DNA of 64,000 nt from Verrucosispora sioxanthis (GTDB lineage: Bacteria; Actinomycetota; Actinomycetes; Mycobacteriales; Micromonosporaceae): positions 1 to 64,000 of the forward strand of contig NZ_SAIY01000005.1 in assembly GCF_010560025.1 (NCBI RefSeq), given 5' to 3'. This document shows, one piece after another, positions 7,509 through 30,012 of this stretch. Each line of letters begins with the position of its first letter. Position 1 is the first letter of the stretch. Below the pieces are notes generated by a model. That model saw only the letters and a list, made by a program, of their open reading frames with translations, did no database searches and was not told the DNA's origin. The position numbers were made by a program, and so were the translations under genes.

Positions 7509-7540
7509 GACCGGCGACTCTAACGCCCACCACCGCGTCG

Positions 7541-8446: not shown

Positions 8447-8578
8447 CTGCTGCTCCTGAAGGTGCCGGTGCGCTGGGGCCATCGACGTTAGGAGCGATCC
8501 GGGGCGGTTCGATCGTTCTCGGTTGCCTAGGTCTGCCGGGCCTACCTTCGGCGGTTCGCGCCACGGCACACTTGCGGC

Positions 8579-9460: not shown

Positions 9461-9494
9461 TCGAGTGCGCTCGGGGCTCCAGGTTCCGCTTCGA

Positions 9495-9510
9495 CGTCCG
9501 ACGACGGACG
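9495..9510. terminator. Hairpin between convergent genes
   Basis: CGTCCG-ACGA-CGGACG is a perfect 6+4+6 inverted repeat in the 62-base gap between the MmyB-like gene and the opposing gene. It could end transcripts from both sides. Confidence 0.45.
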
Positions 9511-9522
9511 CTCCGCTCCGAT

Positions 9523-9972: not shown

Positions 9973-10025
9973 CAACTCCAGAATGCCGGCTGGTTTGTCG
10001 GCACGAGGACGGCTGGCCTTGCCCG

Positions 10026-11237
10026 CTACTGCGGGGCGGCCTTCTCGGCCTCCTTGAGCACGGCCAGACACAGCCACGAGGCGAACTGCTGGTCGATGAT
10101 CTGGCGAGCCCGCAACGCGCTCAGCACTGCCTGCGGTTGGGTGATCTGCCATACCTTGACGTCGAAGCTGGGCAACCCGTCGTCATTGAAGCGTTCTCGG
10201 GGCAGGAACGGCAGCGCCCGCCAGGCGATACCAGCGTTGCGCAGCTGGTCGACCTGCATGAAGGTGCCCAGGTTGGCCAGCAGGGTAGGCAACGGCACTG
10301 CCCGACCACCGCCGTAGGTGGTACGCAGGTCCCGCAAGGTGCTCAGCTCGTTGCCACTGAGGCTGACATGGCTCCGATCGAACTCGGCCCACCAGAACGC
10401 GTCGTACGCGCCGAGATATCCCTGAAACAGCGCAGCCGTTCCATCGGTGGCTCGCTCCAGAACGAACTCGTGGATGGCGTCGTTCACCACGTTGATCAGA
10501 ACCGGGTTCGGATAGGTGGCCTGGACCAGCTGGGTCAGCTTGGCAGCGCCGTTGGCGCCGTACAGTCCCTTCTCCTCGGCCAACAGCTCCACGTGGCCGC
10601 CGAGGTCCTGGATACGGCCGACGAGGTACTTGGCGGTGGGGCCACAGGCGCCGAAGAAGTTGTCGAACTGGAAGCGGCTGAACGTCATGTTCACCGGGTC
10701 ATACCAGGTCAGCACACTCGCCGGATGCCGGACCACGCGGTAGGCCATCAACTGCTGCGGATATCCGGTGCCCGGCACCCACCCCTGCAACGACGTGGCC
10801 ACGTCACTCCAGTCGCCAAACCGCCAGCGATCGGCCACCGTGTCCGCGGCCAGCGCGGCGAATCCGGGGCTGCCCAGCCACGCCGCACCCTGAACCAGCG
10901 CCTGGTACACCTCGGCCTGCTGCAGGTCGAGCAGGGTGGAGTACTCGACAACCGCCTGACCCCGGCCGATACGCACCGTGCCAGGCTTCTCCGCACCGGA
11001 CGGAGCGACGTAGCTCAGCGCGACTGCGGGGGGCGGCGCGACCGACCCGCCGGCCCACTTCGCTTGCAGCAGCACTGCCAGCGCCTTGGCCAGCGCGTCG
11101 ACGTCGACGAACTTCCACAGCTTCGTCGAGCTGCCGAACAGCAGAGCAGGTATCCCGGCTGACACAGCCCCCACCGCAGCGGCGTGCTGGGGCAGATTCT
11201 TGTCCCGGTAGACGAGCGAGCCGACCTGTACCGTCAC
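10026..11237 (-). CDS. Unrecognised 403-residue protein
   Basis: A long intact reading frame with normal codon bias and a GTG start preceded by GGAGGAGGG. I do not recognise a family. The N-terminus has a hydrophobic stretch (AAVGAVSAGIPALLFG) that is probably not a full membrane helix; the rest looks soluble and rich in aromatic residues (WYDPVNMTFSRFQFDNFFG, AYDAFWWAEFDRS). The two genes here, this one and the following 149-aa gene, sit between an SDR/regulator block and a broken small gene. No catalytic motif is evident. Confidence 0.6.
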   Translation of the reverse strand: MTVQVGSLVYRDKNLPQHAAAVGAVSAGIPALLFGSSTKLWKFVDVDALAKALAVLLQAKWAGGSVAPPPAVALSYVAPSGAEKPGTVRIGRGQAVVEYSTLLDLQQAEVYQALVQGAAWLGSPGFAALAADTVADRWRFGDWSDVATSLQGWVPGTGYPQQLMAYRVVRHPASVLTWYDPVNMTFSRFQFDNFFGACGPTAKYLVGRIQDLGGHVELLAEEKGLYGANGAAKLTQLVQATYPNPVLINVVNDAIHEFVLERATDGTAALFQGYLGAYDAFWWAEFDRSHVSLSGNELSTLRDLRTTYGGGRAVPLPTLLANLGTFMQVDQLRNAGIAWRALPFLPRERFNDDGLPSFDVKVWQITQPQAVLSALRARQIIDQQFASWLCLAVLKEAEKAAPQ

Positions 11238-11341
11238 GTTGTCCCTCCTCCGCGGGCCCTCACAAGAGCCGCCGGGATCACGATGGGCCACAGCGCCGGG
11301 CTGATGCAGTCACCAGAGCGACATAGGGCGGTTCGTCGTCG

Positions 11342-11622
11342 TCAATGCGAGAACGGCTCCAGGCAGCCGAATTCGACAGCCGAGCCGGTGACCTCGATGG
11401 CGTCCGCCGCGATGCCAGGTCGAGCAGCGCTCGCCGGGTGGAGCCCGGCGCGAAGTCCCCCGCCTCGCGAAGCGCCTCGAGCTTGGGCCGGATCCGCTCG
11501 GCGAGTCTCTTTCCGGTGCGCTGGTCCGCTTCGGAGAGTTCGTGTCGCCGCCCGGCTGATCCTTCCCACACGCATCGACGCCCCCGTTCATCCTCGTCCG
11601 AGGATCCGATCGTACGACTAGG
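11342..11622 (-). pseudogene. Small gene broken by one frameshift
   Basis: Two protein-like segments lie in adjacent frames. The first, from about 11622, includes HELSEADQRTGKRLAERI and RPKLEALREAGDFAPGST and reads ...LLDLASR. The second continues as ADAIEVTGSAVEFG and ends CLEPFSH at a TGA. A single missing base in the GGCGG run at about 11404-11412 explains the break: inserting one base gives a smooth ...LASRADAIEV... join. The start is uncertain. I do not recognise the family. Confidence 0.5.
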
Positions 11623-11629
11623 CACACTT

Positions 11630-14058
11630 TCACCCCACGACGTCGACGGGGGGCCGCGCGGCCGGATGGCGTAGTGACCGCCAGGTCGGCAGCGCGCTCG
11701 CCAGCGCCGCCAGCAGCAGGCAGAGGCCCACCACCCCGCCGACCACCGACCACGGCACCACCAGGTCGACCGGTACACCGGCCTGCTCGGCGAGCCCGGC
11801 ACGGATGCTCAGTAGACCGACGAACGCGACAGCGCCTCCGAGCAGCGCGCCGATCAGCACCACCAGGGCGGACTCGGCCGTGACCAGCCAGATGACCTGC
11901 CTGCGGGTCGCGCCGGCCAGCCGGATCAGCCGCAGGTCCGGCACCCGACCGGCAGCGGCCATCAGCAGCGTGTTCGCCACCGCGACGGCTCCGTAGCCGG
12001 CCGAGACAGCGATCAGCAGCAGCGTGGCGAGCCAGACGAGACGATCCTCCGCACGGTCCGCCTCGGCCGCCCATGCGGCAACGTCGAGAATCCGCGCTCC
12101 GGGCGGAGGATCGATCCGCTCCCGGACGTACACCGCGGAGGAGAGTGCCGAGGGGTCGTGCTTCCGCACCACCGACCGGGGCAGCAGCAGGTCGCCCGGG
12201 ATCGAGTCGTCGGTGACGACCGCCACCACGCGCAGCGACACCAGCTCCCCGTCGGCGAAGATCAGCGCGAACGGATCGGTCGGCTGCCGGTTCGCCGTAG
12301 CGGTGAGCACCACCGTGTCGTCGCCGCTGAGGTCGCCGAGGGAACCGGCGACGACGGTGAGCGCGCGGTTCGCGGCGGCGAAGCCCGCCGGGTCCACGCC
12401 GAGTGCGGTCAGTGGCCGGTTCTCCGGCGGCGTGCTCGGGTCGCTCACGAAGACCGTCGTCGGTAGCAGGGCGGTCCCCCCGGTCGCCGTGACGGCCTGG
12501 TCCGACAGGCCGGGTGTGCGGTCGGGCACGACGATCCAACCGGCGTTCACGTCGCCGGCCCGACCCGCCGCGTAGGCGGCCGTGGTGGTGCGCACCATGC
12601 CGGAGACCAGCACCGCGAACGCCACCGTGAGCAGCACCGGGGCGGCGATCGAGGCGGTTCGTCGGGTCGCGGTCAACGCCCCGGCCCGGATCAGCATGCC
12701 GATCGCACCGCCTCGTCGACGCACCGGCACACGCAGCATCCGCACCACCGGGCCGACGACCGCCGGGGCGAGCACCGCGGCGCCAGCCACCAGGGCCATC
12801 ACCGCGTAGAGGGCGAACGTGGCGGCGCTGCGGGCGTCGTCGGAGGTCGCGGTACCGAGGCTGAGGGCGGCCCCCACCGCGACGAGCAGTGCCCCGGTGG
12901 CGACCGTAGCCGTCCGATCGGCCGCTGCTCCACGGCCGCCGCACGCAGCGCCTCCAGCGGGCGAACGCGTGCCGCGCGGCGCGACGCCGACCAGACGGCC
13001 AGCAGCGCGATCACCGGCCCGGCGGCGAGCGACACCGCGACCGGCCAGGGCTCGTAGCGGACCCGGAAGGTCGCCGGCTGGAATCCGGCGTCGACAAGCA
13101 GTCGATCCAGCACCGGAGCGAGCCCCGCGCCGACCAGCAGCCCGGCGAGGCCGGCCGTGACACCGACGACGAGCGCCTCGACGTACACCATGCGGCGGAC
13201 CTGACGACCTGTGGCGCCGACGGCGCGTAACAGACCCAGCTCACGGCGGCGTTGCGCGACCGTGAAGGCGAAGGCGGAGGCGACCACGAAGACCGTGACG
13301 AAGCCGGCGAGAGCCGCCGTGGCGGTGAGCACCTGCATGCCGATCCAGCGGGTGCGGGCGTCGCCCCGAGGTTCCAACGCGCCGCGTCCGTCGGCGGTCA
13401 GCGCCCGGCCGTCGCCGCCGACGACACCGCGAGCCGCCGCGGCGACGTCCTCGGCATCGGCGTCCGGCGCGATGAGCAGACCGATGGCCCGGACACCGGG
13501 CGCGAGTGCGGCGGCGACCTCGTCCGCGACGTAGACGCCGGGCGCATCGACCAGACCGGTGACGGTGTACGACTGGGGCCCTGCCGCCGTGAGCAGGGTG
13601 ACCGGCCCGCCGGGAGGCAGCCCGAGCGCACGGTCGACGACCACCTCGCCGGCCTGCCGGGGTGGCTGCCCGGCGGTGAGACGGAACCCGCCCAGCCGGG
13701 TGCTGGACCAGCCGTGCCCCTGGTGGGCGTCCTCGCGCTGGCCATCGGTGGGAGGGGGCCGGCCGTCGACAAGCGCCTGGGCGTAGAAGGTCCGGTCCGG
13801 CACCACGGCCGTGACACCCGGCACCTCGGTCAGCCTGCTGGTGAGTTCCGCTGCCCTGGCGGCCGACCAGGGCCGGGTCGGCGCGAACGAGTCAGCCGGC
13901 GCACCGGCCTCGGGGCTCTGAACGACGACTGCCGCGTATGCCAGCCGGTCGGGCACCCGCGGGCGTCCGGAGGCGAGCAGCAGGGTGGCCGCCGCGACAA
14001 GTGCCACACCGACGGCGACGAGCACGAACGCGCTCACCGACCGTCGGACACTCAGCAC
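11630..14058 (-). pseudogene. FtsX-type ABC transporter permease, frameshifted
   Basis: A two-block FtsX permease of about 810 residues. The first half starts at a GTG that overlaps the end of the ATPase gene and has an N-terminal helix, a long extracytoplasmic domain and the RRRELGLLRAVGATGRQVRRM motif. The second half continues in another frame with further helices and a second FtsX block (LRLIRLAGATRRQVIWL). The join is at about 12915: one frame reads to EQRPIGR and the other picks up as TATVATGALLVAVGAALSL. Apart from this one slip the gene is complete, so it could equally be a sequencing indel. Its partners are the upstream ATPase and the divergent two-component system. A role in export of, or resistance to, a peptide or other envelope-active compound is inferred from this layout. 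Confidence 0.85.
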
Positions 14059-14816
14059 GACCGCTCCACGGTGGTTCCCGCCGGAGCCGTCTCCTGCTCG
14101 GCGATCCGCGCGGCGACGACCGCGGCGGTGATCCCGCCGGTCATGTCGTCGACGATGCGGCCATCGGCGAGCAGCAGGACCCGATCGGCGTACGCGGCGG
14201 CGATCGGATCGTGGGTCACCATCACCACGGTCTGCCGGTGGTCGTCAACGAGTGCGCGCAGCAGCCGCAGGATCTGCCGGGACGCCGCGCTGTCCAGTGC
14301 CCCGGTCGGTTCGTCGGCGAAGACCACCGCCGGACGGGTGATCAACGCCCGGGCCACGGCGACGCGTTGCTGCTCGCCGCCGGACAGTTCGCTCGGCCGG
14401 TGCCCGGCCCGACCGGCCAGTCCGACGGCGGCGAGCGCGGCAGTGACGTCCCGGGCCGGCGGACGGCGCCCGGCCAGGCGCAACGGCAACTCGACGTTCT
14501 GCGCCGCGGTCAGCGTCGATACCAGGTTGAACGCCTGGAACACGAAGCCGATCCGCTCGCGGCGCAGCCGAGTCACCTCGTCCTCGCCCAGGTCGTCGAG
14601 GCGTCTGCCGTCGATGACGACGGTCCCCTCGGCGGGCCTGTCCAACCCGGCCGCGCAGTGCAGCAGGGTGGACTTGCCCGAGCCCGACGGGCCCATCACC
14701 GCGGTGAACGTGCCGCTGGCGAAGCTGGTCGTCACGTCGTCGAGCGCCGTCACCCGGCGCGCCCCGGTGCCGTACACGGCGCGTAACCCGGTCAGGGTCA
14801 CCGTCTGTGTGGTCAT
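14052..14816 (-). CDS. ABC transporter ATP-binding protein (MacB/LolD type)
   Basis: A 254-residue ATPase with Walker A GPSGSGKS, Q-loop VFQAFNL, signature LSGGEQQRVA, Walker B VVFADEP and switch histidine in MVTHD. It is the motor for the FtsX-type permease encoded immediately downstream. The permease GTG lies inside the last codons of this gene, so translation is probably coupled. Expression is likely controlled by the divergent histidine kinase/response regulator pair, the usual arrangement of actinobacterial peptide-sensing exporters. Confidence 0.93.
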   Translation of the reverse strand: MTTQTVTLTGLRAVYGTGARRVTALDDVTTSFASGTFTAVMGPSGSGKSTLLHCAAGLDRPAEGTVVIDGRRLDDLGEDEVTRLRRERIGFVFQAFNLVSTLTAAQNVELPLRLAGRRPPARDVTAALAAVGLAGRAGHRPSELSGGEQQRVAVARALITRPAVVFADEPTGALDSAASRQILRLLRALVDDHRQTVVMVTHDPIAAAYADRVLLLADGRIVDDMTGGITAAVVAARIAEQETAPAGTTVERSC

Positions 14817-14859
14817 GACCGCCAGGGTGCCGGCTCCGGCGGGTGCCGGGCGTCGTGCC

Positions 14860-14893
14860 GGAGCGGACACTTTCCGGTCCGCTCCGGAGCGGA
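14860..14893. promoter_or_regulatory. Cluster of GGAGCGGA half-sites between ABC exporter and two-component genes
   Basis: Three copies of the octamer GGAGCGGA alternate in orientation: plus at 14860-14867, minus at 14878-14885 and plus at 14886-14893. They form a 9+8+9 inverted repeat (GGAGCGGAC / GTCCGCTCC) and an abutting perfect 16-bp palindrome (TCCGCTCCGGAGCGGA). The cluster starts 44 bases upstream of the ATPase start and ends 93 bases before the kinase start. The obvious candidate ligand is the NarL-type response regulator encoded nearby. Confidence 0.65.
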
Positions 14894-14985
14894 TCCGGGA
14901 TCCTGGAACGCACCAGACGTCCTGCCTGAGGATGACCACCCGCGGGTGGACGCGCCCGGTCCGGGTGGCCGATACGCTCGGGCAG

Positions 14986-16143
14986 GTGACCGCCTTCCTG
15001 CTGACCCGGCGGCTCCGGCCGGCGGAACTGGCCACCGTGGACGTCGTACTCGCCGTGGCGGTCGGCGGGTTGCTCGGCCCGTACGCGGCGTTGGAATCGC
15101 CGCTGCGGGGTGGAGTGCACGAACCGCTGTGGGTGTCGGTGCTCGTCGGGATGGCCCTCGGGCTGCCGCTGGGCGTCCGGCGACAGTGGCCGATCACGGT
15201 CGCCGTCGTGATCAGCTGTGTCGCCGCCGTCGCCCTGATCAGCGGCGTGGTTCCCAACTACGCCGCCGCCGCGCCCGGGCTCGCCGTCGGTCTGTCCGTC
15301 TACACGGTGGCCGTGTCGACGAGCCCGCACCGGTCGGTGCTCTGCGCCGCCGGTTGTCTCGCTCTGGTGAGCATCGCCCTGATGTTCACCGAGAGTGATC
15401 TCTGGTCGCGGACCGGCGCGGTCGGCTACGCCGCCGTCATGATCGTGCCGGCTGGGATGATCGGCTGGCTGGTCCGGGAGCGTCGTGCCGTCGCCGTCCG
15501 TCAGGGCGAGCACCTGGTCCGTCAGGCTGCGGCCGAGGAGCGGTTACGGGTGGCCAGGGAACTGCACGACGTGGTCGCGCACACGCTCAGCCTCATCGTG
15601 GTGAAGGCGGCCGTCGCCAACCACGTCGCCGAGGCCGACCCTCGCGAGGCGGGAGCCGCCCTGCGGGTGATCGAGGAGACCGGTCGCAACGCGTTGACCG
15701 ACGTCCGCCGGGTGCTCGGTGTCCTGCGCGAGGACACCCCGTACGCCCCGCAACCCGGACTGGACGAGTTGCCCGCGCTCGCCCGGCAGGCCGCGATCGG
15801 CGGTGTCGACGTACGTCTCGACGTGCGACGGGACGAATCGGCCGAAGCGGTGCCGGAGTCGGTGGGTCTGGCGGTGTACCGGATCGTGCAGGAGGCGGTG
15901 ACGAACGTGGTGAAGCACGCGGCGCCGGCCACCTGCCGGGTGACGGTGATCGTCGCCCCTGGCGAGGTCAGGGTCGAGGTGACCGATGACGGCCGCCGGC
16001 CGGTCTCGACGGTCGGTGAGGGGCACGGGATCATCGGTATGCGGGAACGGGTGGCGCTGCACGGCGGCGAGTTCCACGCCGGCCCACGCTCCGGCGGCGG
16101 CTTCGTGGTGACGGCCGGCCTGCCCTACCGGGTGAACGCGTGA
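14986..16143 (+). CDS. Sensor histidine kinase (HisKA_3 type)
   Basis: A 385-residue membrane kinase. Five or so hydrophobic helices fill residues 20-160, followed by the dimerisation/phosphoacceptor motif RELHDVVAHTLS (His at about 194) and an ATP-binding domain with QEAVTNVVKHA, VTDDG and GHGIIGM. The GTG start at the VTAFLL sequence is preferred: the TACGCT hexamer ending 9 bases before it fits a leaderless -10 element. An in-frame ATG at 14932 is possible. The stop overlaps the response regulator start. It probably senses a compound handled by the divergent ABC exporter. Confidence 0.9.
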   Translation: MTAFLLTRRLRPAELATVDVVLAVAVGGLLGPYAALESPLRGGVHEPLWVSVLVGMALGLPLGVRRQWPITVAVVISCVAAVALISGVVPNYAAAAPGLAVGLSVYTVAVSTSPHRSVLCAAGCLALVSIALMFTESDLWSRTGAVGYAAVMIVPAGMIGWLVRERRAVAVRQGEHLVRQAAAEERLRVARELHDVVAHTLSLIVVKAAVANHVAEADPREAGAALRVIEETGRNALTDVRRVLGVLREDTPYAPQPGLDELPALARQAAIGGVDVRLDVRRDESAEAVPESVGLAVYRIVQEAVTNVVKHAAPATCRVTVIVAPGEVRVEVTDDGRRPVSTVGEGHGIIGMRERVALHGGEFHAGPRSGGGFVVTAGLPYRVNA

Positions 16144-16808
16144 TCCGGGTGCTGATCGCCGACGACCAGGCGCTGCTGCGTGGCAGTTTTCGGCTGTTGG
16201 TCGATTCGACCCCGGACCTCGTCACCGTCGCTGAGGCGGGCACCGGTGCGGCGGCCGTGGCGCTGTCGGCCGAGTACCGGCCGGACGTGGTGCTGATGGA
16301 CGTGCGGATGCCGGAGATGGACGGCATCGAGGCGACCCGACGGATCTGCGGCGACCCGACGGGCACCGGCACCCGGGTCATCATCCTCACGACCTTCGAC
16401 CTGGACGAGTACGTCTACGGGGCACTGCGCGCCGGAGCCAGCGGGTTCCTGCTCAAGGACACCCCGCCGGCGGATCTGCTGGCCGGCATCCGGGTGGTGG
16501 CCGCCGGGGAGGGACTGCTCGCGCCGACGGTGACCCGGCGGCTGATCGACGAGTTCGCGCGTCGACCCGAGCCGGCCCGGCCGCTGCCGCGACGGCTGGA
16601 GGCGGTGACCGAGCGGGAACGGGAGGTGCTCACGCTCATCGCCCGTGGCCTGTCCAACGCGGAACTGGCCGCGTACCTCAATCTCAGCCCGACCACCGTC
16701 AAGACGCACGTCGGACGGTTGTTGACCAAGCTGGCGGTACGTGATCGGGCGCAACTGGTCATCGTCGCCTACGAAACGGGCCTGGTGCAGCCGAGCAACC
16801 CACGTTGA
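16140..16808 (+). CDS. NarL/LuxR-family response regulator
   Basis: A 222-residue regulator: receiver domain with phosphoacceptor Asp at about residue 54 (VVLMDVRMPEMDG) and conserved Lys in FLLKDTPP, then a LuxR helix-turn-helix at about 155-210 (TEREREVLTLIARGLSNAEL, ending TVKTHVGRLLTKL). The GTG start lies within the last codons of the kinase gene (GTGA overlap). The octamer cluster between the kinase and the ABC genes is its likely binding site. Confidence 0.93.
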   Translation: MIRVLIADDQALLRGSFRLLVDSTPDLVTVAEAGTGAAAVALSAEYRPDVVLMDVRMPEMDGIEATRRICGDPTGTGTRVIILTTFDLDEYVYGALRAGASGFLLKDTPPADLLAGIRVVAAGEGLLAPTVTRRLIDEFARRPEPARPLPRRLEAVTEREREVLTLIARGLSNAELAAYLNLSPTTVKTHVGRLLTKLAVRDRAQLVIVAYETGLVQPSNPR

Positions 16809-19954: not shown

Positions 19955-22900
19955 CTACGTTCCGGCCGGCGCGGCGCCGTACACGGTGAACGAGACCCAG
20001 TCGGCAAGTCCGGCGAACGGACGGACCGTCCGGTACGCCGGCGCGCTCGTGGACACGTGTCGGGACGTCGCCCCCGCCGGTAGTGGCTGACCCTCCACGA
20101 GCCTGCTCAGATGGCGCTGCCAGGTCACGAACGCCTCCATCTCGCCCGCCGTCCGGTGCGCCACGGCGATGGTGCGGCACCCCAGCACGGCCTGGTCGCC
20201 CCCCGCCGCCACCAGGTGGACGCCTCGCTCCACCAGGTCGGCCGCACTCGCCCCGCGCAACTGCCGCTGCGCCTGGCCGAGGACCGTGCCGACCTGTGCC
20301 AAACCAAGCTGACCCGCCGGGTCCAGCCCGTCGTAGAACCAACCCATCAGCAGCGCCGTCGCCAGGTCGGGGACCGGCCGGATCGCCGTCACCAGGCCGC
20401 TGGCGCCAGCCGCCAGCAGGGTCCGGCCCAGCCCGACGAGTTCGTCTCCGTCGCGCACCTCATGCCGACCGCTGTCGCAGGCGCTCAGGACGACGAGCGC
20501 CCCGCTCTAGTTCCACTGCGCCAGTCGTGCCAGGCTCACCAGATCGGCGCCCGAATCCGGCTCGGCGGCGGCGCGCGGATCCAGCGGTTCGCCGCGTCGC
20601 CGGTCCCCGTCGAGATGCCGTCCCCGCATACCCTCGTCCAGGTTCCTCGACGCACCAGGTGTCGGCGCGGCAAGCACCAGTCCGCTGCGCTCGGGGCGCC
20701 GCCGATCGAAGACGGCGTGGCAGGCCAGATGCACCAACCGGGGGCGTTCGGGCCCGGCGAGGGTGTCGGCGAGCCAGGTCGAGGTGACCGCCGCGCCGGT
20801 CCGCCCCGAGCCGCCGAGCCGGGCAGCCACGTAGGCGCACTCGGCACGCGCATACGGCAGGTCACCGAGGGTATCGCCGCACACGAGGACGCGGCCCACC
20901 GACGCGGTGTGCCTGTCGGGTTCGCCGCCGCGCGGGTTGGTGCGTGCGGGGACTGACCGGTGTGCTCGCAGCAGCGAGGCGCTCGGCAGCAGGTACGTCC
21001 TGGGCCGAACCCTGATGTCTGCGGTATCGGACGGCCCGGCTGCACCGGCATCGTCGACGGTCCTGGCCGGTGGAAGCACATGCAGGGGAACCAGATGCAG
21101 GGTGCCGTGCGGTACCACGTACACGGGCCGGCTGGGCGGCACGTCGGCGATGGGCGCGGTGAGCGCGGCGTGCACCGGATGCTCGACCAGCTCGCGGAGC
21201 CCGTCGTCGTCCGCCGAGGCGAGCAGGTCCGCCCAGCCGTCGACGTCGGTGGCGGCCACCGCGCCGGGATCGTGCGGCCCCAGCAGACGTCGGGCGGTGA
21301 GGTCGGTGCCGCTCAACGTGAACGCCCACACGCCGAACGGGCCGGTCAGGTACTCCACCAGGACGGCGTCTCCCGCGTCGGCCAGTAACGGAGCCACCTC
21401 GTCGGCAGTGATCGGCTCGGCCATCCGGTGGGCGCGCATCGTCGGATGGGTCGTGGCCATCTGCTGCCACAGGTCATGCAGCTCACCGCGTACCCGCGAC
21501 TGCTCCTCGGAGGCCGACATCCGACGCACCAACAGCCGTCGACGCTCCTCGACATCGACGGAGCCGCCGACGTCCATGCCCGAGGCACGCAGCCGCCGCA
21601 GCTCGGCCCAGAGCGCGGCCTCACGGGCCACCAGCGGGTCGGCCGGGTCGACGCCGGTCTCCCGGTCCCGCATCGCCTCCAGCAGCGCCCGCGACTTCGC
21701 CCGTTCCAGCAGCGCGAACGCCTCCTCGACCCGGCCCAACTCCACCGCCAGGTCCGCGGCCTCGACAAACGGCGGCGTGAAGATCGCACCGTAGCCTGCC
21801 GCCTCGCTCAGGTCGGCGATCCCCTGGCGCAGCTCGTCGTAACCGTCGCAGGCGTCGCGGAGCACCCGCAGCGTCTCTTCGGTGCGCTCGCCGGCGGCCA
21901 GCGCGGCGAGGCCCAGCGCCGCGTCCGCCGGATAGCGCACGGCCGCCGCTGTCGCCTCGTCGCGCAACGCGACAAGTCGGGCCCGGAAGGGCGCGGCCTG
22001 CTCCGCCCGGCCCGAGCGCGACCAGTTCAGCACCAGTGTGCCGAGTCGGAGCGCCAACCGGTCCAGGCCGGCGAAGGGTAGCTCCGCACCGTGCCGGTCG
22101 TGTGCGCGCTGCATCGTGTCGATCGAGGCCAGCAGGTAGCGGTCGGCGAGCGCCGTCGCGCCGTAGCCGCAGGCCACCCCCGCCATGATGGAGTCCAGGA
22201 TGCCCAGGTCGCCGGTGTTCTCGACGGGGATCTGCGCGGTCAGGAAGGCGATCAGCGCCCGAGCCTGCGCTGCCAGCTCCAACAGGGGTCATCCCGGTAC
22301 GGGTCGGGTCGCGGGACAGCAGCGTACACAGGTTGATCAACGCGGTGAACTCGGCGCGGGCGTCGCCGATCTCGTGTGCCGTCCGTCGGGCCTGCTCCAG
22401 CAGTGCCAGCGCCTCGTCGTGGCGACCGACCGTGGTGTAGAGCAGGCCGAGGGACGACCAGACCGCCGGCAGCGCGTGTACGGCGCCGAGCTGGTTCCAC
22501 AGTTCCCCGGCCGTGCGCAGGGAGCGCTCCGCCTCGCCGTAGCGGTGCTCCAACAGATGCCGCTGACCATCCTCACTCGCCCGCTGGGCGAAATAGGCCG
22601 GCGCACCGATCGTCAGATCCCGACGTATCCGTGGGTCCAGCTTCGCGACCATCTCCCGGAAGGCCGGGTGGGCCAGGGCCATCGGGTCAGCGCCCATCCG
22701 CTCCCGGGTCGCCGCCTCGATGCGCTCGACCCGCGCCCGGAAGCCGGTCGTGTAGTGCGCGGCGTCCACCTCGGAGTGCAGGTCGTGAATGAGGTCGTGG
22801 GCGGCGGTGAATGCGTCACCGGCGGAGCCGCCGTCTGCCTCCCGGCGCATCGTCGCCAGATTGATCATCGCCTTGTAGGCGTCGTACCGGGCCGGCGAGT

Positions 22901-23585
22901 CGGCCAGCAATCGTACGGCCCCAGCCGCTGCCTCGATCGCCTCGTCGTGCCGGCCCTGCCGGAACAACTCCCGGGCCAGGTTGTCCAGCAGGATCCCCCG
23001 CCGGGGCCCCGCCACGCCAGGCTGGGCCAGCGCCCGCCGGTAGAGCTCCTCGGCACCGTCCCTGCCCTGCTGGTGCAACACCTCCGCGTGCCCGGAGAGG
23101 GCCGAGGCCAGGCCGATCTTGTCGGTAACCAGCTCCGCGAGCTGGGTCGCCATGCCGAACAACTTGGCCGCCTGCTCCAGACGATCATCGGCGATCTCGA
23201 CGGTGGCCATCCCGATGATCGCCGCGACCCGCAGGTCCACCGCCCGCTCCCCGTCGCTCTCCGGCATGGCGGCGGCCACCTCGAAGGCCATCGCGTACGC
23301 CCTACGGGCGTCGTCGAGCCGACCGACGATCCGCGCGCACTGGCCGAGCAGCCGGAAGACCAGGAAGCTGCCGGGGCTGGGCGAAAGGGCCTGGGCGTGG
23401 CCGACCAGTCCCCGCAACACCCGGTCCGCCTCCGCCAGCTGACCGGTGTTGACGAGTTCGTGCGCCCAGTTGGCGGCGCCCAGCAACATCTCCTCGGTGA
23501 CCTCGCCGCCTTCGCTCGGCCCTGTCGACCGGCCCTTGTCGGCCGGGGCACCGGAGCCGGATCGGCGTCGACGGAAGAACGGCAT
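19955..23585 (-). pseudogene. TPR-CHAT domain protease-like protein, broken by frameshift and amber codon
   Basis: A very large protein (about 1,210 residues if restored). The N-terminal two-thirds is helical with TPR-like repeats (GRLDDARRAYAMAFEVAA, QGRHDEAIEAAAGAVRLL, VGRHDEALALLEQARR). The C-terminal CHAT domain is a caspase-fold peptidase with the catalytic His in HLACHAVFD and Cys in VVLSACDSG. Two lesions separate these parts: a frame slip at about 22283-22290, within the TPR region, and an in-frame TAG at 20507-20509, which lies between the His and the Cys (AQWN-stop-SGALVVLSACDSG). As read, the Cys cannot be made without suppression. The gene starts four bases after the preceding gene ends, so the two form an operon. 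Confidence 0.85.
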
Positions 23586-23589
23586 GGCC

Positions 23590-24690
23590 TCAACGCCCCA
23601 ATCGTCGCAGCAGGATCTCCGGGTCGTCTTCGAACTCCGTCGCACCGTTGCGCTCAGGCCCGCCGTCGTCGCCATGTTCGCCGCCACGTACCGTGCCAGC
23701 CGGGGCGCAGGCGCGCTCCACCAGCGCGACGTACTGGCGTTGGTATTCCTCGAACAGGGCCTCCTGTTGCGGGCGGATCAACTCGTCGGTGCAGAGCGCC
23801 CCGGCGGTCTGCCGCCACAGCACCTGGGCCGCTCCCAGGTCGCCGTCCGCGAGGTGTTGGCGGGTCCGCTGCCAGAGCTGGAAGAAGGCCAGCTGGCGGT
23901 AGTCGTCGCGGTGGCGGGTCGCCTCGACGCGGACCAGGATGAAGTCGTGCTCCGTATAGGGCGCGATCGTGCCGTCCGCGGCCACCCGGCAGAGCCGACC
24001 ACCGACCACCCCGAGCGACGCCAACTCCGCCTGGGTCGTCTTCCCCGCCGGCCGGCGGATGATCACGAAGTGGGTAGGCGCCAGCTCCGTCGGGCCACGG
24101 GCCACCCCACCCGCACCGGTCGGAGCGGACCAGGACTGGTGTACGCCCACGCGCAGCTCCAGCGCCGCCGAGTCCATGAAGGACTCGATGCCGTCGATGA
24201 GCGCCGTGGCGACCCTGGCGGAGCCCAGTAGCCCGGCGAAGCCGATGGCGCTGCTCACGTTCTCGATCAGGTTGAGCGATCGCTGCAACGTGTCCGACGT
24301 CTTCGCTCGAAACAGGGCCAACAACAGACTCACGTCGTCGCCCTCGTAGGGCACCGGTCCGGCCACCCGCAGGTTCGAGATCTCCACCGCGTCGCGTTCA
24401 CCGGTGACCTGCAGCCGCCGACTCAGCTCGCTCGCACCGATCAGGTACGGCACCGCGACCCGGTTGCCATCGCGCAGGAACTCCGTCACCACGGCACCGA
24501 AGGGCAGGAACTCCCGCCACAACTCGCGCTCGTTGGCCAGCCACAACTGGCTGACCCTGATCACCAGATAGACCTCGTCGGTCACGAACGGCGTAGCGTC
24601 GGTCGGCCCGTCCAGTGTGGGCACCGGTCGAGCGATGATGCCCTCCGACTGCCGCGCGAGCACCCGGCGCACAAGGTCACGCAACGCCAT
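23590..24690 (-). CDS. Unrecognised protein encoded just upstream of the TPR-CHAT gene
   Basis: A 366-residue soluble protein. The start at MALRDLVRR has a GGGGAG ribosome site. It contains VYLVIRVSQLWLANERELWR, a central hydrophobic segment (LNLIENVSSAIGFAGLLGSA) that could be amphipathic, and an acidic C-terminus (EFEDDPEILLRRLGR). I do not recognise the family. Tight coupling to a CHAT peptidase gene suggests it is the partner, activator or substrate of that peptidase. Nothing inside the sequence proves this. Confidence 0.6.
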   Translation of the reverse strand: MALRDLVRRVLARQSEGIIARPVPTLDGPTDATPFVTDEVYLVIRVSQLWLANERELWREFLPFGAVVTEFLRDGNRVAVPYLIGASELSRRLQVTGERDAVEISNLRVAGPVPYEGDDVSLLLALFRAKTSDTLQRSLNLIENVSSAIGFAGLLGSARVATALIDGIESFMDSAALELRVGVHQSWSAPTGAGGVARGPTELAPTHFVIIRRPAGKTTQAELASLGVVGGRLCRVAADGTIAPYTEHDFILVRVEATRHRDDYRQLAFFQLWQRTRQHLADGDLGAAQVLWRQTAGALCTDELIRPQQEALFEEYQRQYVALVERACAPAGTVRGGEHGDDGGPERNGATEFEDDPEILLRRLGR

Positions 24691-24790
24691 GCACTGCTCC
24701 CCACTCCAGCTCGACTCCGTCACGTTAGCGCGTGATCGCAAAGCGCGAAGTGCCGCCCGACCGAGCAGGTCGTCGTAGCCGTTGCGGACG

Positions 24791-24816
24791 GCCCGGGAAC
24801 GCGTACGTTCCCGGGC
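24791..24816. terminator. Perfect 11+4+11 hairpin between the SnoaL-like gene and the CHAT operon
   Basis: GCCCGGGAACG-CGTA-CGTTCCCGGGC lies 37 bases beyond the stop of the SnoaL-like gene on the minus strand and 101 bases before the start of the CHAT operon. It would end the first transcript and insulate the second. Confidence 0.65.
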
Positions 24817-24852
24817 GTTCGAGAGATGCCCCTCGTAGCGGCTCACCCAGGG

Positions 24853-25242
24853 TCAACGCTGAGCAGGCTCCCACCACACCAGATTTGCGGCGACCTGGGC
24901 GACCGGCTCGATGATCTCCCACCCCTCGGCGATCAGCCCGTCGTCGATCCGCCAGATGTCGACGACCGCGATCTCCGGCCCGGTGTCCGCAAGCCAGCGC
25001 CGCGAGTACACCACGACGTGATCGCCATCGGCCAGCACCTGATGGATCTCCACCCGCATGCCGGCGAGCGGCACCAGCGCGGCCCGGACGGCGGCGAGCC
25101 ACTCCCCCTTGGTCGAGGTGGTCGAACCCGGCCGGTGGTGGACGAAGTCGTCACGCAGCGACTGGGCGAGCGTGTCGACGTCACCCGTCTCGATCAACCC
25201 GGCCAGCGCCCGTTGGACGATGTTCTTGTTCTCCGTGGTCAT
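24853..25242 (-). CDS. SnoaL-like (NTF2-fold) protein
   Basis: A 129-residue protein of the SnoaL/ketosteroid-isomerase-like superfamily: NIVQRALAGLIETGDVDTLA helix, LRDDFVHHRPG, then VEIHQVLADGDHVVVYSRRW and IDDGLIAEGWEIIEP. This is the ester cyclase-like layout. The fold houses cyclases, isomerases and binding proteins; substrate unknown. A regulator is divergent 80 bases away with a palindrome between, so the gene is probably under its control. Confidence 0.85.
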   Translation of the reverse strand: MTTENKNIVQRALAGLIETGDVDTLAQSLRDDFVHHRPGSTTSTKGEWLAAVRAALVPLAGMRVEIHQVLADGDHVVVYSRRWLADTGPEIAVVDIWRIDDGLIAEGWEIIEPVAQVAANLVWWEPAQR

Positions 25243-25265
25243 GGACGCAGTGTTTCCGCATCCGC

Positions 25266-25299
25266 GTCGCCTGTCGATGACATCGGATGTCATGGCGAC
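25266..25299. promoter_or_regulatory. Nested inverted repeat between SnoaL-like gene and XRE regulator
   Basis: A perfect inner repeat ATGACAT-CGG-ATGTCAT (25277-25293) lies within outer arms GTCGCC (25266-25271) and GGCGAC (25294-25299). It fills the middle of the 80-base divergent gap and is the likely operator of the adjacent XRE regulator. Confidence 0.65.
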
Positions 25300-25322
25300 C
25301 GGCTCCACGATGGGTACGCTCC

Positions 25323-26090
25323 ATGATCGTGCACACGGTCGGGGAACTCCTACGACAGTGGCGGAAACGCCGGGGACTCAGCCAACTCGATCTCGCCATC
25401 GTCGCGGACGTCTCGGCCCGCCACGTCAGCCTGGTCGAGACCGGCAGATCCAGGCCGAGCGCCGACATGATCCTCCGGCTCGCGGATCAACTTCACGTGC
25501 CGCTGCGCGACCGCAACCGGCTCCTGCTCGCCGGCGGCTTCGCACCCCGCTACACCGAGCGTCCACTCCACGACGACGCACTGTCGGCCGTCCACGACGC
25601 GATCAGCCGGGTGCTCCGCGCACACGAACCGTATCCAGCGGTGGTGTTCGACCGCCGGTGGAACATCGTGATGACCAATCGCGCCGTCGAACCGTTCTTC
25701 GCACAGGTGGCTCCCGACCTGCTGCGGCCACCGGTCAACCTGGTACGGCTGGGACTGCACCCGCGCGGGCTCGCCCGCCTGGTCGTCAACCTGGCCGACG
25801 TGCGCGCGGTGTTCCGCGCACGGATCTCACGCCAGCTCGCCACGGCTCCCGACCCCGAACTCACCGCACTCTACGAAGAACTACTGGCACCCGAGGCCGA
25901 CGACACGTCCGATCAACGGATCGACGCCGACGTGGTGATCCCGATGATCCTCAACGTCGGCGGACGAGAACTGCGGCTGTTCTCCACCATCACGACGTTC
26001 GGCACCCCGATGGACATCACCATCGACGAGGTCGCGGTCGAGTCCTACTACCCGGCGGACGCGGAGAGCGCCGCCTACTTCAGGAAGTAG
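25323..26090 (+). CDS. XRE family regulator with MmyB-like C-terminal domain
   Basis: A 255-residue regulator: XRE helix-turn-helix at residues 5-65 (GLSQLDLAIVADVSARHVSL, VETGRSRPS) and a MmyB-like domain from about 90 to 250 (WNIVMTNRAVEPFF). The ATG used here leaves the palindrome free in the upstream gap; an in-frame upstream ATG at 25287 would lie inside it. Divergent from the SnoaL-like gene, which it probably represses or activates. Confidence 0.88.
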   Translation: MIVHTVGELLRQWRKRRGLSQLDLAIVADVSARHVSLVETGRSRPSADMILRLADQLHVPLRDRNRLLLAGGFAPRYTERPLHDDALSAVHDAISRVLRAHEPYPAVVFDRRWNIVMTNRAVEPFFAQVAPDLLRPPVNLVRLGLHPRGLARLVVNLADVRAVFRARISRQLATAPDPELTALYEELLAPEADDTSDQRIDADVVIPMILNVGGRELRLFSTITTFGTPMDITIDEVAVESYYPADAESAAYFRK

Positions 26091-26119
26091 CGCATGCCGC
26101 ACACCGGGCACGCTACCCG

Positions 26120-26476
26120 TCAGCCGTAGTACTCGACCAGGCAGAACTCGTGGCCCTCCGGGTCGGCCATGACGACGACGACACCCTCCTCGTAGTCGTG
26201 CCGCTCACCGGTGGACCGGCCACCGAGCTTGACGACCTCCGTCATGGCCTCGTCAATATCGTCCACCGAGATGTCGAGGTGGATCCGCACCTTGCCGGCC
26301 TGAAGCTCAGGCACTGGCTGGAACACCAGCCGTGGCTGCGGGTCACCTCGTTCGCCCAGGTAGACCCAGCCCTCCTGCGACGAGCCGGGCTCGCGACCGA
26401 GGAGGGCGCTCCAGAATCCGGCGACCCGCTCGGGGTCGAGGCAGTCGATCGTCACACCGGACCAGACGTTCGCCAT
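26120..26476 (-). CDS. VOC-family (glyoxalase/bleomycin-resistance-like) protein
   Basis: A 118-residue protein with the VOC pattern: GVTIDCLDPERVAGFWSALL at the N-terminus, RIHLDISVDDIDEAMTEV in the middle and VMADPEGHEFCLVE at the C-terminus. VOC proteins include metal-dependent lyases, dioxygenases and drug-binding proteins; this subgroup is usually annotated only as VOC. Convergent with the XRE regulator. Confidence 0.88.
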   Translation of the reverse strand: MANVWSGVTIDCLDPERVAGFWSALLGREPGSSQEGWVYLGERGDPQPRLVFQPVPELQAGKVRIHLDISVDDIDEAMTEVVKLGGRSTGERHDYEEGVVVVMADPEGHEFCLVEYYG

Positions 26477-26640
26477 GCGCCGATCCTGACAGAGCACGTC
26501 CATCGAGGACGCGAGAGCGTCGCCCATGCTGCCGGGGTTCTTCGGCGGCCGCCTCTGGCCGCCGTACGGTCGTCGCTCCGCGTCACGGCGGTCGTGGCCG
26601 GCAGACACCGTGGCTCCGGAGGTTCCGGCATTCGCCGCGA

Positions 26641-27579
26641 TCATGGACTCGCGGGCGTCGCGGCAGCGCCGCCGAGGTGGTGGTGCAGGAAGGCCGCGGC
26701 CGCTTCGGCAGCCTGGCTGACGTACGGCTCCACGTCGTAGAGGTCGATGTGCTGCTTGGCGTCGAGCCAGCGAATCTCCTTCGGTCCGGTCGCGTCGGTG
26801 TAGAGCGCCTCGGCGAGTTCCGGTGCGCAGTAGGCGTCGGTGCGGCCATGCACGACCAGCAGCGGGGTGGCGGCGAGCAACGGCGCCGCGCCAAGTGCGT
26901 CGAAGGTCATCAGAGCGTGCAGCGAGCCGTAGGCGACCCGGTTCTCCCAGTGCGCCGCCGCCGACCGCTCGGTGCCGTAGTAGGCGAACGGCTCGTCGCC
27001 GCCCATCGCCGCGAGTGCGCCGTCGGCCGCCACCGCCGGCAACTCGTCGTCGTAGCGCTCCACGAAGGAGCGCAGCGCCCGACGGTATCCGTCGAGGTCG
27101 CCGGCACTGAAGCGGACCGGGCTGTTGTACCCGCCGGCAATGCCCACGACCGCGCGGATCCTCGGGTCGGTGGCGGCCGCGCGGACCGCGTAGCCGCCGC
27201 CGAGACAGATCCCGACTGCGGCCACCCGAGCGGCGTCCACGGCCGGATGCGCGGCGAGCAGGCTGACCGCTGCGCGCAGGTCGGCGAGCTTGCCCTGGCT
27301 GTCCTCGTGGGCACGGCGTCCGCCGCTCTCGCCGAAGCCGCGGTGGTCGAAGGCGAGTGTGGTGAGACCGTGTTCGCGCAGCCGAGCGGCGTACGTGCCG
27401 ACGACCTGCTCCTTGACGCCGGTGAACGGCCCGGTCAGTACGACGGCAGGTGCGCCGTCGGCGGCCACGGCGAGGCTGCCGACCAGCGTGAGACCGTCGG
27501 CGGTGAATGTGACACGCTCGGTGGTCATGCCGCCAGCGGGATACGTGTGGGTGCGGTACTCGGACGTGCGGTCGGACAT
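26641..27579 (-). CDS. Alpha/beta hydrolase, dienelactone-hydrolase-like with Cys nucleophile
   Basis: A 312-residue hydrolase. The nucleophile elbow is GICLGGG, with Cys in place of the usual Ser, as in dienelactone hydrolases. The Asp is likely in VVHGRTDAYC and the His in DAKQHIDLYD. It resembles the large soluble family with HRGFGESGG after the first strand. No signal peptide. Divergent from an HxlR regulator, which probably controls it. Substrate unknown. Confidence 0.85.
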   Translation of the reverse strand: MSDRTSEYRTHTYPAGGMTTERVTFTADGLTLVGSLAVAADGAPAVVLTGPFTGVKEQVVGTYAARLREHGLTTLAFDHRGFGESGGRRAHEDSQGKLADLRAAVSLLAAHPAVDAARVAAVGICLGGGYAVRAAATDPRIRAVVGIAGGYNSPVRFSAGDLDGYRRALRSFVERYDDELPAVAADGALAAMGGDEPFAYYGTERSAAAHWENRVAYGSLHALMTFDALGAAPLLAATPLLVVHGRTDAYCAPELAEALYTDATGPKEIRWLDAKQHIDLYDVEPYVSQAAEAAAAFLHHHLGGAAATPASP

Positions 27580-27649
27580 GGCGGCGGTGTTCCCTTCGGG
27601 CGTCTACTGTTGACTCGACGCTAGGTCGCACGGTGCTCGTCGAACAGAA

Positions 27650-27665
27650 GGCACTTCCCGGTGCC
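27650..27665. promoter_or_regulatory. Inverted repeat between the hydrolase and HxlR genes
   Basis: GGCAC-TTCCCG-GTGCC is a perfect 5+6+5 repeat, nearly extended by GAA/TTC on the outside. It lies between the hydrolase start (27579) and the preferred HxlR start (27699), so it is a candidate HxlR operator. Confidence 0.4.
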
Positions 27666-27698
27666 CTTCGCCGCACGGTCCGATACCCGGGGGTGCTC

Positions 27699-28061
27699 AT
27701 GTCGCTGGTGGTTCCGGACGTGCTCGACGAGGGCTGCACGACGCGGCAGGCGATCGAGCGGCTCGCCTCGAAGTGGCGGATCCTGATCATCTACGCGCTG
27801 CTCGCCGGTCCCCAACGGCACGCCGAGTTGCGTCGCCGCGTCGCGGGGATCACCCAGAAGGTCCTGACCGAAACGCTGCGCGAGATGGAGCGCGACGGGC
27901 TGGTGCAGCGACGGGTGCTCAGGGAGACACCGCCACAGCACGTCGAGTACGCGTTGACCGCCCTCGGCAAGACCCTTCAGGAACCACTCGCCGCCATCTG
28001 CGCTTGGGCGACGGAGAACAATCCCGTCCGATCATCTGCCGTGCCGCCGTCTGGGCAGTGA
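27699..28061 (+). CDS. HxlR-family winged-helix regulator
   Basis: A 120-residue MarR-like regulator of the HxlR group: RQAIERLASKWRILIIYALL, then RHAELRRRVAGITQKVLTET and LREMERDGLVQRRV, ending in the wing VEYALTALGKTL. A Cys near the N-terminus (DEGCTTRQ) occupies the position of the redox-sensing Cys of YodB/HypR-type members, so thiol sensing is possible. The ATG follows GGGGG; a GTG at 27633 would add 22 residues and cover the inverted repeat. Confidence 0.85.
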   Translation: MSLVVPDVLDEGCTTRQAIERLASKWRILIIYALLAGPQRHAELRRRVAGITQKVLTETLREMERDGLVQRRVLRETPPQHVEYALTALGKTLQEPLAAICAWATENNPVRSSAVPPSGQ

Positions 28062-28216
28062 CATCGGTCGGGGAAGTCGGGACGGTGCGAACGGGCCGGC
28101 CCTCGCTGGCCTGACTCGAAGACCACGTCCGGTAACAGCCGCCCGGCGCCTCTGGTCCCGGTTCCATCGGCTGGGCGTTACTGTGACGGTCGTCGGCATG
28201 GCGGCTCACCGGGCGC

Positions 28217-29125
28217 TCAGTTCGCGAGACGGATCCGGGCCCACGCCACGACGCGTCGGATGACCCAGTCGTCTATCGGCCTGCGGAGCTGACCTCGGTA
28301 CCGCCACAGTCCTGGCGGTCCGCAGTCGCGACGTAGCAGGTGGGTGAGGTCGGTCGGCAGTTCACCATCGAACTGGCCGGTCACCAGCCGGCCGATTCGT
28401 GGGACGTCTGCCGGGTCGACCTGGACGTCCTTGCCGCCGGTGATCGCCAGCACCGGCCGGTCGATGGCGGCCAGGTCCGGCCGTGGGTCGTGGGCCAGGT
28501 ACTCGCGTAGCCATCGGTCGGTGAGGCGCGAGCGGGGCATCCGGTCATGTCGGTCTGCGGTGGACCGGCGGATCCGGTCGCGCTCGCGGGCCTGGCGCCG
28601 TACCAGTACCGGGCCCAGCGGGCGTAGCAGCCGTGGCAGCGTGGCCGCGATCCGCTCGCTCTGCCAGGCCATCACCTGGTCACCGGGCTGTGCGGCACCG
28701 GCGAGTAGCACATAGCCGGCGGGCGGTCGAACTGCCCGTACGAGGTTGGCCGCCACCACCGCTCCGGTCGAGTGCCCGACGACGAAGACGCGCTCCGGGT
28801 CCACCGCGGGATGGGCGCGCAGCGCGGCGAGGGCGGCTGCGGCGTCGCGGCACTCGTCGTGGAAGCCGGTACCGAGATAGTCACCCTGCGAGGAACCCAC
28901 GCCCCGTTTGTCGTAGCGCAGAACGACGCAGTCCTCGTCAGCCAGCGCCACCGCGAGTGCCGGGCCCAGCCCCAGCGCCAGCCCGGGCATGGCGGAGTCG
29001 CGGTCTATCGGTCCGGAACCGTTGACAAGTAACGCGGCGGGACGTCGGCCGTCCACGTCGGGCCGAGTGAGTGTGCCGGCCAGCAGCGCCCCCGCAGCTT
29101 CGATCTCGACGGTCTGCTTCCGCAC
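28217..29125 (-). CDS. Alpha/beta hydrolase
   Basis: A 302-residue soluble hydrolase with oxyanion region LLVNGSGPIDRDS, nucleophile Ser in VVGHSTGAVVAA, and LAITGGKDVQVDP holding the likely acid. It resembles the peptidase-S9/BAAT-like group of small-molecule esterases. The GTG start is preceded by GAGGGTGG. A helix-turn-helix regulator is divergent 62 bases away and two inverted repeats lie between them, so regulation by that protein is likely. Confidence 0.85.
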   Translation of the reverse strand: MRKQTVEIEAAGALLAGTLTRPDVDGRRPAALLVNGSGPIDRDSAMPGLALGLGPALAVALADEDCVVLRYDKRGVGSSQGDYLGTGFHDECRDAAAALAALRAHPAVDPERVFVVGHSTGAVVAANLVRAVRPPAGYVLLAGAAQPGDQVMAWQSERIAATLPRLLRPLGPVLVRRQARERDRIRRSTADRHDRMPRSRLTDRWLREYLAHDPRPDLAAIDRPVLAITGGKDVQVDPADVPRIGRLVTGQFDGELPTDLTHLLRRDCGPPGLWRYRGQLRRPIDDWVIRRVVAWARIRLAN

Positions 29126-29141
29126 CGATCCACCCTCTAAC

Positions 29142-29159
29142 ATTCTCATATCTGAGAAT
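29142..29159. promoter_or_regulatory. Operator-like inverted repeat, hydrolase side
   Basis: ATTCTCA-TATC-TGAGAAT is a perfect 7+4+7 repeat 17 bases upstream of the hydrolase start, AT-rich in an otherwise GC-rich region. Confidence 0.65.
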
Positions 29160-29181
29160 CAGAGGGCTCAAGCTAACATTC

Positions 29182-29198
29182 TTGATTGTGATAATCAA
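29182..29198. promoter_or_regulatory. Operator-like inverted repeat overlapping the regulator start
   Basis: TTGATT-GTGAT-AATCAA is a perfect 6+5+6 repeat that contains the GTG start codon of the regulator gene. A TAACAT hexamer ends eight bases before that GTG and would serve as a -10 box for a leaderless transcript, so protein bound here would block initiation. Confidence 0.55.
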
Positions 29199-29748
29199 CG
29201 CCCAGCCCGCGAGATCCAACGCCCGAATCGTGGAGACCGTGCTGCATCCGGGCCGGTTGCGCATCGTGCACGCGCTCATGGACCGCGAGCTGACCGCACG
29301 CCAGCTGAGCGCCGAACTCAGCGACATCCCGCAAGCATCGCTCTACCGACACGTCGGGCGTCTGGTGGACGCGGGGGTGCTACGGGTTACCCGCGAGGAG
29401 CGGGTCCGCGGCGGCACGCAACGCACCTACACGGTGGTAAAGTCCGCGGTCACCCTCGGCCCCCGCGACCTCGACACCGCATCTTCCGCCGACCATCAGC
29501 GCTACTTCGCCGCGTTCGTCGGCGCACTGGTCGCCGGGTTCGAGCAGTACCTGCGAACCACCGACGCCGACCCCACCCGCGACGGCGTGGCGTACCAGCA
29601 GATTCCGGTCTGGATCACTCCTGCCGAATCGCGCCAGCTCGCCGCCGCGATCACCGATCTTGTGCAACCTCTGCGGATGCGGACACACGGAAGGCGACGC
29701 CGCCGGGCAACCTTCGCAATGGTCCTGCACCCCGACCCGGCCACGTAG
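29188..29748 (+). CDS. ArsR-like helix-turn-helix regulator
   Basis: A 186-residue regulator with an N-terminal winged helix: ARIVETVLHPGRLRIVHALM, then LTARQLSAELSDIPQASLYR and HVGRLVDAGVLRV. The C-terminal half may bind an effector. The GTG start is chosen because a leaderless -10 element precedes it and no ribosome site exists for any upstream codon. It probably controls itself and the divergent hydrolase through the two inverted repeats. Confidence 0.82.
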   Translation: MIINAQPARSNARIVETVLHPGRLRIVHALMDRELTARQLSAELSDIPQASLYRHVGRLVDAGVLRVTREERVRGGTQRTYTVVKSAVTLGPRDLDTASSADHQRYFAAFVGALVAGFEQYLRTTDADPTRDGVAYQQIPVWITPAESRQLAAAITDLVQPLRMRTHGRRRRRATFAMVLHPDPAT

Positions 29749-30012
29749 CGGACACCCGCTCATGGCCGGGCGGCGATCCTGCCGCCGCGCTGACCGCCGC
29801 GTGAGGGCGATAGCCCGGTTGCCGCCGAGCGCTCTACTGCGGTGACCCGGTCTACCGGCCGGGCCCCTGGGACGAGGTGACCTGCTCAGCCACGGGTCGC
29901 CGATCCCCCGGAGGAGGTCGGGTCGCCACAGCACCACGACCGGAAGGACCGAGGACTCATCGCACCGATGCGCGCGGCGGCAAGGCACCGCCATCTGACC
30001 TGCCGTAGCTGT

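Follow-up and report, generated by a model that had tools for sequence, protein, structure and literature searches.

Bacterial gasdermins are encoded beside dedicated proteases, are inhibited by a short C-terminal peptide and are freed by proteolysis (according to excerpts of PMC10989679). In Canu, Hachiman and AVAST a constant protein goes with trypsin-like or caspase proteases and is activated by cleavage, the target of the Canu type being a nuclease of the MBL fold (excerpts of PMC12799240), and in Craspase, composed of gRAMP, TPR-CHAT and Csx30, a TPR-CHAT protease has a separate protein as its target (excerpts of PMC9729208 and PMC11106740).

Here we compare with these systems a pair of genes from a 64,000-nucleotide stretch of Verrucosispora sioxanthis (positions 1 to 64,000 of contig NZ_SAIY01000005.1, assembly GCF_010560025.1; hereafter the window). 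An earlier note had proposed that a gene for a 366-residue protein of no known family is the partner of an adjacent TPR-CHAT peptidase gene. We found that relatives of this partner recur beside proteases of different kinds, which suggests a part that these proteases switch on or work through and perhaps a role in bacterial self-defence. The partner family is apparently the unnamed, soluble, non-enzymatic and constant part of modules in which the peptidase varies.

The partner gene (Table 1) is translated from 24690 to 23590 on the minus strand into 366 residues without an inner stop. A longer open frame would begin with a GTG at 24846; we prefer the ATG at 24690, because the matches of three relatives from genome contigs start at partner residue 1 and four close relatives align from the Met at that position. 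The sequence GGGGAG stands six bases 5' of this ATG, and the partner stop ends at 23590 with the CHAT ATG at 23585, so that the ribosome site of the earlier note is plausible and its four-base spacing stands up. The same 4-base gap is found in L008 and L015, and L009 and L010 have a 4-base overlap. The protein is 93, 83, 55 and 52% identical to its four relatives, and dN/dS among the window, L008 and L015 is 0.16, 0.19 and 0.22, which together exclude a chance open reading frame and make the partner a real gene. The same comparisons give 0.31–0.37 across both parts of the CHAT gene, so the partner is under the stronger selective constraint of the two; values obtained with L009 and L010 (0.44–0.65) carry little information, as dS is high there.

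Table 1. Features of the gene pair, and coordinates of three cassette loci (positions are those of the window unless another locus is named)
Feature	Position	Strand	Basis or remark
Partner gene, 366 residues	23590..24690	minus	open reading frame, relatives, dN/dS
Ribosome-binding sequence (GGGGAG) plus the six bases 5' of the ATG	24691..24702	minus	read from the sequence
Residues 133–172 of the partner, two predicted amphipathic helices	24175..24294	minus	low-confidence models
Residues 329–350, variable Gly/Asp-rich linker, putative cleavage region	23641..23706	minus	mostly pLDDT <50
Residues 351–366, short C-terminal tail containing DDPxxLLRRLG and ending in a predicted helix	23593..23640	minus	
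TPR-CHAT gene, broken: residues 1–434 in one frame, remainder in another, one in-frame stop	19955..23585	minus	
Frame break of the TPR-CHAT gene	22282..22290	minus	approximate
In-frame stop within TPR-CHAT, 5' of the catalytic-Cys block	20507..20509	minus	
Predicted catalytic His codon (HLACHAVF)	20717..20719	minus	counted by hand
Predicted catalytic Cys codon (LSACDSG), 3' of the in-frame stop	20477..20479	minus	counted by hand
DNA common to the window and G079 (L015): two genes and about 55 bases upstream	19974..24745	minus	
Cassette in L016	8490-17746		distant partner member
Cassette in L017	965-10482		distant partner member
Cassette in L018	9163-18528		distant partner member

The 366-residue protein has no match above the curated cut-offs of Pfam and NCBIfam, none in PADLOC up to an E value of 5 and none among PDB sequences below an E value of 0.5, which bears out for these four sources the statement that it belongs to no known family. 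PADLOC models matched none of three partner members scanned, and 14 members compared with PHROGs and NCBIfam gave one stray match in each (E values of 0.04 and 0.03), in single members only. We considered a known enzyme as the identity of the partner and rejected it, as the members scanned match no enzyme family in Pfam, NCBIfam, PADLOC or PHROGs. Neither the family nor the cassette discussed below is described in the titles and abstract beginnings of the literature matches listed, or in the passages of PMC7159879, PMC8195603 and PMC10907252 that were covered. The partner family is real, constrained and unnamed in the libraries searched.

Family members are about 330–430 residues long. Across 14 of them, Y41, P63, P114, L126, L233, D249 and D263 are invariant and L51, R55, G117, G167 and L304 nearly so; His, Cys, Glu and Lys are absent from the invariant positions, which speaks against an enzyme. 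AlphaFold2 models of the partner, made twice with four sequences, reached pLDDT values of 47.3 and 47.0 and no usable fold, and Foldseek returned no match below an E value of 1 for the first of them. Both low-confidence models show, in rough agreement, strands, a pair of central helices, a helical part towards the C terminus and, after a poorly predicted linker, one more short helix at the end. In 23 of the 25 family rows the most hydrophobic 19-residue segment is centred on residues 133–172, where hydrophobicity is no higher than in 72 control proteins; nothing, therefore, points to a pore or membrane role. Residues 321–350 are among the most variable of the alignment. Of the two motifs of the tail, DDPxx(L/I)LR is found in four of five close members and LTLxxLL in 11 of 25 family rows, and because ten of the 25 rows have neither, inhibition by the tail cannot be claimed for the whole family.

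We counted 25 partner loci in five phyla (the window, L008–L010, L015–L019, L021–L023, L025–L028 and L041–L049), which are not independent, eight coming from one genus and three from another. Two weak candidates, in genomes G119 and G787 (loci L020 and L024), were unmatched by a wider profile at an E value of 0.001 and were dropped before the count. Across the genomes searched, occurrence is rare and patchy: with the window's own genome included each time, the partner was found in 7 of 250 genomes at the level of the family (one, G119, later dropped), 4 of 397 at that of the order, 10 of 394 at that of the class and 2 of 396 at that of the phylum (the other one weak and dropped), all of these being lower bounds because only a handful of candidates were scored per genome. 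Genome contigs yielded three partner loci, and a search of 72,556 plasmid records with the window protein yielded three, a fourth plasmid locus, in Rhizobium, being found with other partner members as query. The plasmid members belong to Chlorobiota, Cyanobacteriota, Bacillota and Pseudomonadota, which with Actinomycetota make up the five phyla; two of the four plasmids were typed as mobilizable, one as conjugative and one as non-mobilizable. Four scans of viral contigs gave no relative of the partner, and phage records gave no match to the single query used, the L026 member.

Within about 10 kb of the partner, a CHAT gene is found at 16 of the 25 loci, including the broken copy of the window; 15 of these were identified with a local profile and confirmed with Pfam, and that of the window with Pfam. 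The background, drawn from the window's genus and order only, is 79 CHAT matches in 31 related genomes (about 185 Mb, or about 0.43 per Mb), a chance expectation of about 0.0085 per 20 kb. Against this expectation, the association that the earlier note proposed to check by genome neighbourhood is real. A peptidase gene of some kind lies beside the partner at 18 of the 25 loci (16 with CHAT, one with caspases and one papain-like), and one more holds a CHAT remnant. Caspase-domain proteins flank the partner on both sides in L026, where a MoxR ATPase, a VMAP-C protein and an EAD10 protein are also found around it; a papain-family peptidase lies directly upstream in L027, and L028 has an annotated S8 serine peptidase downstream of the partner besides its CHAT gene.

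At L010, an intact partner lies alongside a gene for 75 residues (11065–11292), the last 22 of which match the C terminus of TPR-CHAT (23 aligned columns, E value of 2 × 10−9 with short-query settings); its resemblance to the TPR-CHAT N terminus is not significant. The gene looks as if the bulk of a TPR-CHAT gene had been lost. In L043, L045 and L049 the contig edges are too near to judge the neighbours. In the stretches seen of L021, L025 and L048 there is no gene of the CHAT, caspase or papain-like kind, and the only peptidase returned by a Pfam scan of their neighbours (four, three and two proteins, respectively) is a zincin of the ArdC type, about 5.4 kb away from the L025 partner. The partner looks incomplete in L021 (no recognisable N-terminal part) and in L048 (interrupted), and not in L025. 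Near the incomplete-looking partner of L021 lie two adjacent genes (6722–8601) with a GNTFHGPxxFQVGDxN motif, neither of which has a Pfam match up to an E value of 0.01.

Of the 14 CHAT domains in a rough alignment, 13 retain the catalytic His and Cys. L023 has two CHAT proteins flanking the partner, one (6832–9627) with both catalytic residues missing and the other (10813–12375) with both kept, and two proteins with FHIPEP matches come next. Among 150 genomes of the family, the CHAT subfamily of the window was found only in its own genome and in G079 (by the CHAT C terminus, E value of 1 × 10−20), which are also the two genomes with a close partner in the search of 250 genomes. Partner and CHAT distances are correlated over 13 loci (Spearman 0.70, reached by 0 of 2,000 permutations; the CHAT alignment is rough and the catalytically dead CHAT protein of L023 was left out), a correlation that the relatedness of the species partly explains. 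These neighbourhoods show the partner family's link to peptidases. The earlier note had named two outcomes that would speak against its pair, a family that occurs mostly without CHAT genes and a match to a known enzyme; we looked for both and found CHAT at the majority of loci and no enzyme match.

The idea of a TPR-CHAT gene plus a partner describes an arrangement that occurs, but it is too narrow, as the partner is also found in arrangements with an HExxH protein, a CHAT protein and a STAND-like NTPase, with caspases and with a papain-like peptidase. In a partner tree rooted by midpoint only (L021 and L049 were left out and L048 never entered), one side holds the window type, in which the partner is followed by TPR-CHAT, together with L023, L025, L026 and L028, and L027, L022 and the cassette loci fall on the other; the long branches of L022, L023, L025, L027 and L028 leave their placement uncertain.

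The cassette loci combine the partner with an HExxH protein, a CHAT protein and an NTPase. HExxH was found in five of six cassette proteins inspected, the sixth being a different gene, and the five are related to one another and to truncated pieces at the edges of L022, L042, L044 and L046. The NTPases are likewise related to one another, with a P-loop in nine of nine, and match AAA_16 and partly NACHT in Pfam: only that of L018 exceeds the AAA_16 cut-off, those of L016, L017, L019 and L042 fall below it, and that of L022 has no AAA_16 match and weak AAA_22 and ABC matches. The label STAND-like is therefore putative. The partner follows the NTPase gene in L016–L018 and L022 and faces it in L041–L047. 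In L019, a single frame of 1,820 residues (10690–16152) joins a STAND-like NTPase to a C-terminal partner domain, its N-terminal part being related to the NTPases of other cassettes, and a second, free-standing partner copy (9447–10481) comes after the HExxH gene. For L016, the HExxH protein, the NTPase and the partner have no PADLOC match up to an E value of 0.01 and no Pfam family above the cut-off, and the CHAT protein matches general CHAT models of PADLOC weakly. The window has no STAND-like NTPase beside the partner, where TPR-CHAT and a SnoaL-like gene are the called neighbours.

The neighbour in the window is indeed a CHAT gene, above the PF12770 cut-off and with both the His and the Cys codons present, but it is not intact, since it has a frame break and an in-frame stop. 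The stop separates the two codons, and thus the gene as it stands cannot yield an active protein. Its parts are 84 and 87% identical to an intact protein of 1,214 residues in Micromonospora sp. C95 (L008), and other intact copies are found in G079 (1,230 residues) and Amycolatopsis sp. NBRC 101858 (1,085 residues). Nonsynonymous/synonymous changes in the two CHAT parts number 35/32 and 46/53 on the window branch, which resembles the L008 branch with 30/23 and 37/48. Long-standing decay of the gene is unsupported by these counts; because the window branch is not relaxed, the two lesions are either recent or errors of the draft. In PADLOC, the CHAT and TPR proteins scanned match general TPR or CHAT models, weakly.

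Outside the DNA shared by the pair (Table 1), the comparison of window positions 10001–35000 with L015 gave one further match only, of 625 bases at 14139–14754. The pair of the window and that of one relative (G079) match as a bare two-gene cassette. The DNA match to L008 also includes the methyltransferase downstream and picks up again at 29874. Adjacent to the partner, some 5 kb (24798–29874) are unmatched in L008, between stretches that are 89 and 92% identical.

What the partner does can be read in several ways. We place first, and favour tentatively, the reading in which it is a non-enzymatic partner of peptidases of the conflict type and is itself acted on by them, most likely as a target that is switched on, because protease-activated executors follow the same pattern, one constant protein with exchangeable peptidases; the cleavage, its site, its trigger and its outcome are what we infer. 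The cell would produce the partner in an inert precursor form, kept in check by the short tail at its C terminus. A peptidase triggered through the TPR part in the window type, or through the STAND-like NTPase in the cassette type, would cut it in the variable linker, and the released core may then harm or arrest the cell. It is rather unlikely, on present evidence, that the partner represents a new class of cell-arrest proteins that proteases activate and that are related neither to gasdermins nor to gated nucleases, with the HExxH, CHAT, STAND-like NTPase and partner cassette as an undescribed NLR-like immune system that uses it and the window pair as its minimal form.

A close second, and itself quite possible, is an adaptor or gating subunit that would bind, position or restrain the peptidase (and the NTPase in the cassette), with the peptidase as the effector. 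The fusion of L019 to the C terminus of a STAND-like NTPase favours such a subunit, though it fits a target as well; so do the partner's lack of invariant residues of catalytic type, the resemblance of its short C-terminal tail to a docking motif and a precedent in Canu, where CanB is in complex with the caspase CanA (excerpts of PMC12799240). Yet an adaptor would need to bind CHAT, caspase and papain folds alike, and the partner is intact where CHAT is broken, as in the window, or down to 75 residues, as in L010, the loss in the window being recent or maybe an error.

A role as sensor, in which the partner would bind the trigger and then activate the CHAT protein, is improbable. This would suit the window type, which shows no NTPase gene beside the pair and has TPR-CHAT and the partner only, but the cassette type already has a STAND-like NTPase, a usual type of sensor, and one would not expect a sensor of fast-changing ligands to be so strongly constrained and to vary markedly in the linker alone.

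We rejected two further readings as highly improbable. A toxin–antitoxin pair, in which one gene poisons and the other neutralises, fits the close spacing of the genes and the DNA in common with G079, which ends at the borders of the pair, but the partner is kept where CHAT is broken or lost (the window and L010), the stretch seen of L025 holds a partner and no CHAT gene, neither of the two genes is small, and elsewhere the partner accompanies further genes. Chance neighbours, with the partner a housekeeping or metabolic protein that has no functional tie to the peptidase, would agree with the three loci without a CHAT, caspase or papain-like gene, but this is at odds with an association far above background, the presence of both subfamilies in the same two genomes, a 4-base gap or overlap kept in five close members and the patchy occurrence.

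Returning to the favoured reading of the partner as a target, the conflict systems built on VMAP, MoxR and STAND proteins (Kaur et al. 2020, 2021) join NTPase switches to caspase-type peptidases, as is seen at L026, and differ in that the partner members scanned have no Pfam domain above the cut-off; in the portions of these papers covered, 'chat' and 'catra' are absent from the main text of the former and 'catra' occurs once in the latter. As in Craspase, the TPR-CHAT gene of the window comes with a separate partner protein; unlike in Craspase, no gRAMP was recognised by eye among the called neighbours. Csx30 chains are present in the PDB, and the partner has no match to PDB sequences below an E value of 0.1. 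The partner differs from the target proteins of Canu, Hachiman and AVAST in having no invariant His of the metal-ligand type across 14 members and no Pfam nuclease match among the members scanned. Gasdermin chains are in the PDB as well, and that same search gave no sequence match to them; bacterial gasdermins are roughly 250 residues long, shorter than members of the partner family, in which no membrane-prone segment stands out. With bacterial gasdermins the partner shares its place beside protease genes, and its short tail may be compared with their inhibitory C-terminal peptide; both gasdermins and gated nucleases show this pattern of one constant protein with proteases that can be exchanged. 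If the favoured reading is true, the partner would add a further class of protease-controlled executor, spread over five phyla and carried on plasmids of four of them, and would offer a small two-gene system for direct tests of caspase-like signalling in bacteria.
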